A stretch of DNA of 42,023 nt from Candidatus Gastranaerophilales bacterium (GTDB lineage: Bacteria > Cyanobacteriota > Vampirovibrionia > Gastranaerophilales > Gastranaerophilaceae): positions 1 through 42,023 of the forward strand of contig CANQAL010000004.1 of NCBI GenBank assembly GCA_947589255.1, written 5' to 3'. Below, one piece after another: positions 101 to 25,838 of this stretch; the first letter of the stretch is position 1; every line of letters starts with the position of its first letter. Both the position numbers and the translations under genes were made by a program. Under the pieces are notes generated by a model. The model did not search any database and was not told the DNA's origin. It was given only the letters and a program-made list of their open reading frames with translations.

Positions 101-1057
101 TCAGTTAAATGGATTAAATCCTGTCTCTAGGCTATTTGATATTATATTTTGTATTTCAAGGTATTTTTCTTCCAGTTCGCTATCTGTCATATTATCAATT
201 TCAGCAGTGTTTCCCGGAAAACGTAATTTTAGATATAATCTCATATCTTCAGTGGACATAATGCGTGTCATTCTTTCATCTTTTTCATTTACGTTGTAAT
301 TATAGTTAAAATCTATTCTATGTTTTGCGTGTCGGGGGTTTTCGTTTCCTGTTATACTTTTGAATGAAAAATCTATTGAGTCTGTAATTGCTTGTTTAAC
401 TTCAGCTGATTTTTCTTCTTGAACTTCGTCAAGGTGTGCCAGCATTTCTTCATTAATTTTATCCAATTCTTGCTGCATTTTATTTTGTGTTTCGCTATAA
501 GCAGCAGAAGAGCTGCTACTTGGAGTGTAAATTGGTCTGGGCTTTTCAATTTGGGCTTTTAGTATTTCTTCATAAGTTATTTGATTATTTTTTTCTGTTG
601 CTTCAGTTGGTTGTGGTACTATTCTGGGAACAGCCATCTCTATTGTAGATTCTTTTAACTCTACTTGCTCTATTTCTTTATTTATAAGCTCCATTTGATT
701 ATCTGCTTCAATGACTTTTTTTAGCACTTCCATTTGAGAATTGAGTTCTTGGGCAAGTTTTTTTTGGCTTTCGTAAACTGCTGCATATCCTGATTTTGGA
801 GTTTCAGCTTTTTTTGTTTCGGGTGTTGTTTCTTTTTTCGCAGGTGTTGATGCCGGAGTATTTGTATTAGTCGGTTGTTCTTTTCCGGCTGCAGGTGTTT
901 GTGTTTTTTTTGGAGTAGCCTTATCTATTGGCTCATTTTGTGCTAATTTAAGTGCAGCTTTTTTTGTTGTTTTATCATTCTTTGAACTTTTTCCTGCTTT
1001 ATTTACGGAAGCATTTCCGTCAAGAGCGGTATAAAAAAACGATGAATTAATTTTCAT
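101..1057 (-). CDS. Lys/Thr/Pro-rich protein of unknown function with coiled-coil segments
   Basis: 318 aa. I do not recognise a family. Residues 1-90 are a low-complexity stretch rich in Lys, Thr, Pro and Ala, likely disordered, with no signal peptide or membrane segment. Residues 91-140 and 185-225 look like coiled coils. They begin with related segments, YAAVYESQKKLAQELNSQME (91-110) and SAAYSETQNKMQQELDKINE (184-203), so the protein contains an imperfect internal duplication. Residues 140-180 are Pro-rich, and the C-terminal third is charged and more globular. The ATG has a good Shine-Dalgarno site (GAAAGGGAC at 1064-1072). It is a single-gene unit: a terminator follows, and the neighbour across the 170-base intergenic region is divergent. 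That region carries a G9/C9 tract 43 bases upstream of this start, so its expression may be affected by tract length (inference). Confidence 0.75.
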   Translation of the reverse strand: MKINSSFFYTALDGNASVNKAGKSSKNDKTTKKAALKLAQNEPIDKATPKKTQTPAAGKEQPTNTNTPASTPAKKETTPETKKAETPKSGYAAVYESQKKLAQELNSQMEVLKKVIEADNQMELINKEIEQVELKESTIEMAVPRIVPQPTEATEKNNQITYEEILKAQIEKPRPIYTPSSSSSAAYSETQNKMQQELDKINEEMLAHLDEVQEEKSAEVKQAITDSIDFSFKSITGNENPRHAKHRIDFNYNYNVNEKDERMTRIMSTEDMRLYLKLRFPGNTAEIDNMTDSELEEKYLEIQNIISNSLETGFNPFN

Positions 1058-1100: not shown

Positions 1101-1109
1101 GGGGGGGGG
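1101..1109. repeat. Intergenic G9 homopolymer tract
   Basis: Nine consecutive G (C on the minus strand) in otherwise very AT-rich intergenic DNA, between divergent genes starting at 1057 (-) and 1228 (+). It lies 43 bases upstream of the minus-strand start and 118 bases upstream of the plus-strand start. Long poly-G/C tracts are known hot spots for slipped-strand mispairing. One in a promoter region could change spacing and expression of the minus-strand gene. I could not define convincing -35/-10 boxes around it. Confidence 0.9.
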
Positions 1110-1200: not shown

Positions 1201-1227
1201 TGTTTGTGTAATAAAAAGGAGTTATTT

Positions 1228-1629
1228 ATGAAAAAATTATTTTCTTTATTAATGTTTGTTGCGGCATTTTTCTGCTTTGCATTTATGAATGAAAATTCAT
1301 TCAATCCCGTATTATCAAGAGCAGAAGCTGCCATAAGACAGGTTCAGGCTGCACATATTCTTGTTCCGACAGAAGATGAGGCTGTTAAAATAAGAGAAGA
1401 AGTTATGACGGGAAATCCTGATGAAACATTTAACAGATTTATGGAAGCTGCTAAAAAATATTCAAAATGTCCTTCTGGTAAATCAGGCGGTATATTAGGC
1501 TGGTTTTCAAGTGGCGATATGGTGCCTGAATTTGAAAATGCTGCATTTAATCTTCCCTCGGGTGTTGTATCAGAACCTGTCAAAACACAGTTCGGCTGGC
1601 ATTTAATTTATGTTATTTCAAAGAAATAG
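1228..1629 (+). CDS. Exported parvulin-type peptidyl-prolyl isomerase (PpiC/rotamase family)
   Basis: 133 aa. Residues 1-35 are a signal peptide: MKK, a hydrophobic core LFSLLMFVAAFFCFAF, then a polar stretch to a possible AEAA cleavage site. The rest is one parvulin domain. It starts with QAAHILVPTEDEA, has the central GGILGWFSSGDMVPEFE block and ends with the family hallmark FGWHLIYV. Parvulins catalyse cis-trans isomerisation of Xaa-Pro bonds; with a signal peptide this one should act in the periplasm or at the cell surface as a folding helper. The small size (one domain, no SurA-like chaperone region) matches single-domain parvulins. I chose ATG 1228 because AAAAAGGAG lies 8 bases upstream; a TTG at 1204 would extend the frame through the ribosome-binding site. 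The gene overlaps the converging phosphopantetheinyl transferase gene by 17 bases. Confidence 0.88.
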   Translation: MKKLFSLLMFVAAFFCFAFMNENSFNPVLSRAEAAIRQVQAAHILVPTEDEAVKIREEVMTGNPDETFNRFMEAAKKYSKCPSGKSGGILGWFSSGDMVPEFENAAFNLPSGVVSEPVKTQFGWHLIYVISKK

Positions 1630-24742: not shown

Positions 24743-24815
24743 GGGGGATTAGCTCAATTGGTAGAGCACCTGCTTTGCACGCAGGGGGTTAGGAGTTCGA
24801 GTCTCCTATTCTCCA
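24743..24815 (+). tRNA. tRNA-Ala (anticodon TGC)
   Basis: A 73-nt cloverleaf. Acceptor GGGGGAT/ATTCTCC, D arm GCTC/GAGC, anticodon stem CCTGC/GCAGG with loop TTTGCAC (anticodon TGC at 24776-24778), T arm AGGAG/CTCCT with TTCGAGT, discriminator A at 24815. The third acceptor pair is G-U, the alanine identity element. CCA is not encoded (GTTT follows), so it must be added by nucleotidyltransferase. Confidence 0.96.
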
Positions 24816-24823
24816 GTTTTATA

Positions 24824-24857
24824 GGCTCATCAAAAATTTATCTGATGAGTCTTTATT
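24824..24857 (+). terminator. Terminator after tRNA-Ala
   Basis: GGCTCATCA (24824-24832) pairs with TGATGAGTC (24843-24851, one G-U pair), then TTTATT. Nine bases after the tRNA. Confidence 0.75.
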
Positions 24858-24881
24858 ATTAAAGATCTTATTAGGAGTTTT

Positions 24882-25838
24882 ATGAAAATTTTTTCGGTTG
24901 ATAATAATAAAAATAATAAACATAATATATATTGCTTGTTTGGTGTAAAAATAAAACTCAGAAAAGATTTTATTAAATCAAAAATTTCTCCCTTAATTTA
25001 TGGGGGGGGGGATTGCGCCTATGTGGATTTCTTTTGGCAGGATGAATTCAATGAATATTTTAAATTAAATGATATGTCTTTAAAACTTTCCCAATTAAAA
25101 AATAATTTAGATGATATATCATGCGAATATGCTGATTATTTTATGAAACTTGTTCCTTACTGGAACAGATATAAAATAGGTATATGGTCTGATTATGATA
25201 AAAAGACAATAAAAAAATATAAAGAATTTTTAAAAACATTTAATCAGCCTTTCCCTGAAATTTTAACAATTGACCCTTATTTTTATTCAAATATGTACGG
25301 GTTAACAGATTTACCCGAAGAAATATTAAGTAAAATAAACGGAAAAACTATTATAGATGGCGGCGGCGCAAACGGGGATACGGCATTGGTTTTTCATAAA
25401 TATTTTCCGCTCTCTCAAATAGATGTATTTGAACCTGTTAAAGATAATTTAGATGTAATAAATAAAATACTTTCAGTTGATAATTGCGGCGGAAAAATTA
25501 CTCCCGTTAACTATGGACTTGGTGAAAAATCCGAAACAATTAAAATAGATGATAAAGATGCAAAACTTATCTCTGTTGACGAATACTATGCAAAAAGTGA
25601 AAAAGAAATCGGTTTGATTAAATTGGATACTGAAAGCTGCGAGGCTGATATAATTAAGGGTGCCGTTAATGTTTTAAGGAAAGATAAGCCTGTACTTGCA
25701 ATTGCTATGTATCATACCCCGATTGATTTTTTTGAATTAAAAACTCAATTGGAAAATTTAAATCTCGGTTATAAATTTATGATAAGAAGAAGCCAGATGA
25801 TATTACCGCAGGCAGATTTAGTCTTAATTGCTTATTAA
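24882..25838 (+). CDS. FkbM family SAM-dependent methyltransferase, contains a G10 tract
   Basis: 318 aa. FkbM-type O-methyltransferases add methyl groups to sugars or other hydroxyls. SAM motif I is TIIDGGGANGDTALVF (156-171), followed by DVFEPVKDNL (acidic motif) and GLIKLDTESCEADIIKG (FkbM hallmark). The N-terminal segment IYCLFGVKIKLRKDF resembles the start of many capsule/LPS proteins. Codons 41-43 and the first base of codon 44 form a run of ten G (25002-25011). The window sequence is in frame (ON) with ten G; nine or eleven G would stop the protein at about 61 or 54 residues. ATG 24882 has TTAGGAGTTT upstream. It lies just after the tRNA terminator and is probably monocistronic. A surface-glycan methylation role is inference. 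Confidence 0.85.
   Translation: MKIFSVDNNKNNKHNIYCLFGVKIKLRKDFIKSKISPLIYGGGDCAYVDFFWQDEFNEYFKLNDMSLKLSQLKNNLDDISCEYADYFMKLVPYWNRYKIGIWSDYDKKTIKKYKEFLKTFNQPFPEILTIDPYFYSNMYGLTDLPEEILSKINGKTIIDGGGANGDTALVFHKYFPLSQIDVFEPVKDNLDVINKILSVDNCGGKITPVNYGLGEKSETIKIDDKDAKLISVDEYYAKSEKEIGLIKLDTESCEADIIKGAVNVLRKDKPVLAIAMYHTPIDFFELKTQLENLNLGYKFMIRRSQMILPQADLVLIAY
25002..25011. repeat. Coding G10 homopolymer tract (candidate phase-variation switch)
   Basis: Ten consecutive G in very AT-rich DNA, encoding Gly-Gly-Gly and the first base of Asp44 of the FkbM methyltransferase. The reading frame downstream is open only with 10 (or 10 plus or minus 3) G. With nine G a TAA follows after 18 codons; with eleven G a TGA follows within 12 codons of the tract. 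Confidence 0.93.

Follow-up and report, generated by a model that had tools for sequence, protein, structure and literature searches.

A run of ten G within a gene for an FkbM-family methyltransferase is best explained, on the evidence of sequence comparison, as a site of slippage-based phase variation, and we regard this reading as very probable. The gene lies in a 42,023-nucleotide stretch of DNA (hereafter the window) from a Candidatus Gastranaerophilales genome (G000). By slipped-strand mispairing in replication, one G would be gained or lost at the tract, shifting the methyltransferase gene into or out of frame and making it a contingency locus. Cells with ten G (ON) would methylate a surface sugar, and cells with nine or eleven G (OFF) would make a peptide of 54-61 aa that lacks the SAM domain. 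The locus is one of about 50 poly-G tracts spread over the genome at lengths of G9-G11, most of them in surface-glycan genes. In this model, slippage is the presumed mutational step, its reversal is assumed, surface glycan is the likely target, and phage or host immunity may provide the selective force.

The FkbM gene and its G10 tract

The gene occupies positions 24882-25838 of the forward strand, on which all features of the locus lie. It is fully open with the G10 tract of this assembly and thus in the ON state, encoding 318 aa. Direct reading places an RBS-like AGGAG at 24873-24877, upstream of the ATG at 24882. A predicted tRNA-Ala (TGC) at 24743-24815, conserved in the sister species, lies directly 5′ of the gene. 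Besides this tRNA-Ala, genes for a glycosyltransferase 2 and for a TPR protein lie upstream, and the ORF downstream reads as a cysK-like gene.

The tract consists of exactly ten G at 25002-25011, forming codons 41-43 (Gly41-Gly43) and the first base of codon 44 (Asp44). It is preceded by a 40-codon head (24882-25001) that is little conserved between the sister species. Further downstream, SAM-binding motif I, IIDGGGANGDTA, is read at 25350-25385. The Gly triplet of this motif is encoded by GGC GGC GGC, in contrast to the tract. Reading of the alternative frames shows that nine G lead to a TAA 18 codons behind the tract (about 61 aa) and eleven G to a TGA 10 codons behind it (about 54 aa). A change of one base therefore abolishes the FkbM product in either direction. 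The initial annotation had described the tract as in frame, early in the gene and flanked by clean OFF states; re-reading reproduced the tract and its codons exactly, both stops were confirmed, and the claimed loss of the SAM domain holds, with motif I missing from both OFF states.

The FkbM identity, likewise proposed from the sequence alone, is borne out by two profiles over cut-off, PF05050 (26.8 bits against a cut-off of 22.7; residues 220-298, positions 25539-25775) and TIGR01444 (48.1 bits against 37.7). The sole solved relative by sequence is 2PY6, annotated 'Methyltransferase FkbM' (E 7e-4). The protein shares the domain match and SAM motif I with FkbM-family methyltransferases (PF05050, TIGR01444; PDB 2PY6), but unlike them carries a 43-residue head bearing the tract. 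A comparison with viral contigs gave one remote match only. The product is a putative methyltransferase for a surface sugar.

The window contains a second tract, a G9 at 1101-1109 (+) between the divergent ORFs 101-1057 (-) and 1204-1629 (+). This intergenic tract is a possible transcriptional switch that would act through changes in its length.

Tract length and frame in the sister species

The single true ortholog of the FkbM gene, in the sister species (G032), has a G10 at the same place, where it is out of frame and hence OFF. The glycines are not encoded by mixed codons. The frame of its start codon ends just past the tract, and the body continues in another frame over 273 codons without gaps, with 94.5% identity and a dN/dS of 0.17. 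The tract has ten G in both species, and both the tract and an altered head contribute to the OFF state of the ortholog. The stretch from the tRNA-Ala to the tract (24816-25001) is strongly diverged from its counterpart in L049, with both flanks nearly identical. The head has thus been replaced or diverges fast, and the G10 has nevertheless been kept. More distant homologs in genome G003 have neither the tract nor such glycines. Together, the gene type, the early tract, the clean OFF states and the OFF sister ortholog support the proposal of a candidate phase-variable gene.

At other orthologous tracts, the two species are one G apart. A transketolase-like gene is split by a G9 in L032 and in frame with a G10 in L107. 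The tract of a Methyltransf_24 gene consists of nine C's in L009, where the gene is out of frame, and of ten in L077, where it is in frame. Two further ortholog pairs, L026/L099 and L023/L097, have lengths of 9/10 and 10/9. Automatic classification assigned 18 tracts as in frame and 14 as splitting an ORF in G000, and 29 as in frame and 16 as split in G032, with a few assignments based on spurious ORFs. Both wrong frames are represented among the split tracts of the two genomes, as random slippage predicts.

These comparisons bear on a different use of the same sequence, namely programmed frameshifting or RNA-polymerase slippage, by which full-length protein would be made at a set rate from more than one tract length. 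A homopolymer this long can induce slippage at the ribosome or polymerase step, translational frameshifting has been described at G/C tracts in the maf genes of C. jejuni (PMC3068675), and the pilin-like genes of sister genus g2, described below, pair a uniform G10 with a single, consistent wrong frame, the pattern expected of programmed slippage. A programmed signal should preserve a single arrangement, however, and in the window's genus the in-frame, +1 and -1 arrangements are all present. The one-G shifts between orthologous tracts also argue against such a signal, and we consider it very unlikely at this locus.

Poly-G tracts exceed chance expectation

The G10 tract belongs to a distinct class of runs in its genome, which has a GC content of 31.5%. 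G/C runs counted over 502 kb of G000 number 899 at length 4, 95 at length 5, five at length 6, none at length 7 and one at length 8. The counts then rise to 27 at length 9 and 20 at length 10, with three at length 11. Lengths 6-8 thus form a gap in the spectrum, followed by a peak at 9-10. Twenty trinucleotide Markov simulations of the same size gave a mean of about 2 runs of at least 8, and no more than 9 such runs in any simulation, against 51 observed, so that the tract homopolymers are longer than the composition of the genome predicts. In 200 kb of other contigs, the longest G/C run is not above 6. The whole genome of G000 contains 50 tracts of G9 or more, and that of G032 contains 65 with the same length gap. 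In C. jejuni, opposing biases towards insertion and deletion reportedly keep tracts mostly at G9 and G10 (PMC8355987). The narrow 9-10 peak in G000 matches the outcome described there.

The tract could in principle be a stable Gly-Gly-Gly run, made of ordinary glycine codons or left by a neutral mutational accident, and its being in frame in a fully open ORF accords with this. Codon usage speaks against ordinary glycines. GGG accounts for 15% of Gly codons, but 17 of the 56 Gly-Gly-Gly triplets are GGG-GGG-GGG, roughly a hundred-fold above the codon-usage expectation. In addition, the tract-less homologs lack these glycines, the tract is kept despite the divergence of the surrounding head, and the concentration of about 50 tracts in surface genes argues against accident. 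Such an origin is quite improbable.

Classes of genes with tracts

The DNA pieces to the left and right of each tract were profile-searched separately. The majority of tract genes function in surface-glycan synthesis or modification; some of the flanking pieces had no match in this search. The glycosyltransferases belong to families 2, 8, 9, 10 and 61, DUF4422 with Gly_transf_sug, and RgpF. The methyltransferases include several FkbM members, Methyltransf_24 and Methyltransf_25, and the acyltransferases are of the GNAT, hexapeptide and MBOAT types. Tracts are also found in genes for LicD, PEP mutase, TupA-like and other ATP-grasp enzymes, UDP-galactopyranose mutase, WbqC, an AlgX-like protein, SDR, radical SAM and a DUF4910/DUF2172 protein. 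An MmeI-type restriction-modification gene contains an in-frame G10 (L029:1439-1448). By analogy with cj0031 of C. jejuni, DNA methylation itself may be phase-variable through this tract.

The DUF4910/DUF2172 protein has an N-terminal acyltransferase-like domain, and its gene carries a G9 near the start in both species (L013:13546, L095:5360, L096:6843). In the DUF2172-containing genes, this G9 lies about 14-22 codons from the start. One tract is multi-copy (L021:1-428, L022:6277-6659, L010:4009, L025:89, L035:26). In two copies with a readable gene, it lies about 120 bp 5′ of small cysteine-rich ORFs (MEFNEVENLSDEQ...). These ORFs resemble peptide precursors, and a search of NCBIfam gave no match for them.

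Tract variation at contig ends and integrity of OFF genes

Two contig ends point to variation of tract length within the sample. Once the tract was collapsed, contigs C16 and C24 could be matched over 114 bp that are identical save the tract, nine G long on one contig and eleven on the other. The exact contig overlaps in this assembly are 77 bp. The simplest reading of the sequences is that both tract lengths were present in the reads and that the graph broke there, although PCR or sequencing stutter could also be the source of the two lengths. The tracts are located at L017:5087-5097 (G11) and L014:2476-2484 (G9). A second pair, C57 and C104, shares 76 identical bp beyond the tract, with differences in and near it. 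For the end of C98, a tract-aware search found no partner. A contig end is found within 100 bp of seven of the 50 tracts, where 0.9 would be expected; because some of the seven are multi-copy sequences, this excess is weak by itself. The assembly of another genome, G087, has N gaps within poly-G tracts (L136, L142, L148, L151), suggesting longer or unresolved tracts.

The assemblies are MAGs, and with some tracts at contig ends a sequencing or assembly artefact, either from two-colour poly-G reads or from homopolymer miscalls, has to be weighed. Conserved coding sequence is present on both sides of the tracts. Runs of G and runs of C are both represented, and a MAG assembled independently has tracts at orthologous positions. 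Moreover, miscalls would not produce the length gap at 6-8, and the exact 77-bp overlaps suggest a short-read k-mer assembly, in which homopolymer miscalls are rarer than with long reads. An artefact is therefore highly improbable. Equally hard to credit is that the split genes are decaying pseudogenes with poly-G merely where frameshifts happen: nearly half of the in-gene tracts split an ORF, but the OFF bodies compared are otherwise undisrupted and show purifying selection (dN/dS 0.09-0.49), and two of them have an in-frame partner in the other species.

Distribution of tracts and mismatch repair

Long poly-G tracts are present in most sampled genomes of the window's family, which is probably Gastranaerophilaceae. 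Across 41 genomes of the window's genus, the number of tracts per genome ranges from none to over 100, and the highest count in the family is 176. The other families of the order (22 genomes) have 0-6 tracts. In the order as a whole, one or more G9 tracts are present in 235 of 286 genomes.

MutS and MutL should damp slippage. MutS1 was found in 285 of the 286 genomes of the order, in 241 of them over cut-off, and in G000 both MutS1 and MutL score over cut-off. Loss of mismatch repair was therefore rejected as an explanation of the tracts. In genera g18, g19, g22 and g24, MutS matches with E values of about 1e-120 to 1e-180, compared with 1e-270 to 1e-289 in the rest of the family. Two of these genera with low-scoring MutS, g18 and g19, are almost without poly-G tracts.

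Comparison with known phase-variable systems

The tract set resembles the phasome of Campylobacter jejuni, in which intragenic G/C tracts, mainly of G9-G10 as here, are found in genes such as those for the capsule 6-O-methyltransferase cj1426c, the type IIG RM enzyme cj0031 and the flagellin-glycan protein Cj1295 (PMC8355987, PMC6321876, PMC3068675). The list of tract genes in G000 is close to Campylobacter phasome lists (PMC6321876, PMC8355987). Both organisms have tracts in glycan-modification, methyltransferase, RM, ATP-grasp, radical SAM and DUF2172 genes (PMC8355987, PMC6321876, PMC3068675), and both have ON and OFF copies within one genome. The G tract of Cj1295 lies in the 5′ region (PMC3068675), as does the G9 of the DUF4910/DUF2172 genes in L013, L095 and L096. 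Between 18 and 39 genes are phase-variable in C. jejuni strains (PMC6321876); the 50 tracts here, and up to 176 in the family, are counts of tracts and do not imply that all are phase-variable. C. jejuni is without functional mismatch repair (PMC8355987), a deficiency that G000 does not share. Here the host is a gut bacterium of the Cyanobacteriota lineage with MutS1 and MutL, and the window gene is of the FkbM type. Helicobacter and Neisseria likewise switch surface genes ON and OFF by slipped-strand mispairing at mononucleotide runs; they differ in lineage and gene set from G000, for which switching is proposed.

The mechanism is already known; the novelty appears to lie in the lineage, in the scale and in the fact that MutS and MutL are present. 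A search of the open-access literature found no report joining Gastranaerophilales, or Melainabacteria, with phase variation. Repertoires of this kind have so far been described mainly in pathogens, e.g., Campylobacter. A 2025 review counts among the major open questions the apparent confinement of genomes rich in phase-variable loci to pathogens, for which it names database bias as a possible reason (PMC11868660). The roughly 50 tracts in a gut Cyanobacteriota-lineage bacterium without a known pathogenic role bear directly on this question. If they switch, a phase-variable system would coexist with MutS and MutL. Surface-glycan heterogeneity would then be predicted in a gut lineage that is common and mostly uncultured, and would affect its interactions with phage and the immune system. 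Tract lengths can be checked in existing metagenome reads.

Pilin-like tract genes in sister genera

We rejected glycan phase variation as the account of all tracts in the family, since a second class is present in genera g2, g3, g4 and g6. In these genera, many tracts separate a short leader from a body that resembles a type IV pilin (N_methyl, PF07963). In genome G058, the body is in the -1 frame in 23 of 24 pilin-like genes, with a nearly uniform G10 and any leader length. Five more pilin-like genes of the same -1 type are found in G115. In genus g2 in total, the body is in this same wrong frame at 28 of 31 sampled pilin tracts, again at any leader length. The candidate causes of the -1 pattern are mostly-OFF switching, programmed slippage and homopolymer undercall in some assemblies. 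We tentatively suggest, as somewhat short of an even chance, that the family has among the largest poly-G phasomes known, governing dozens of pilin-like genes per genome in several sister genera, and that the g2 pattern would reflect one-ON-of-many switching by tract length or a shared programmed slippage signal.

Dozens of tract-bearing pilin-like genes per genome were observed in L110-L129 (G058), L130-L159 (G087, G097 and G104) and L160-L189 (G115 and G156). Along the contigs of G058, the tracts form long blocks of shared orientation, as though set by replichore.
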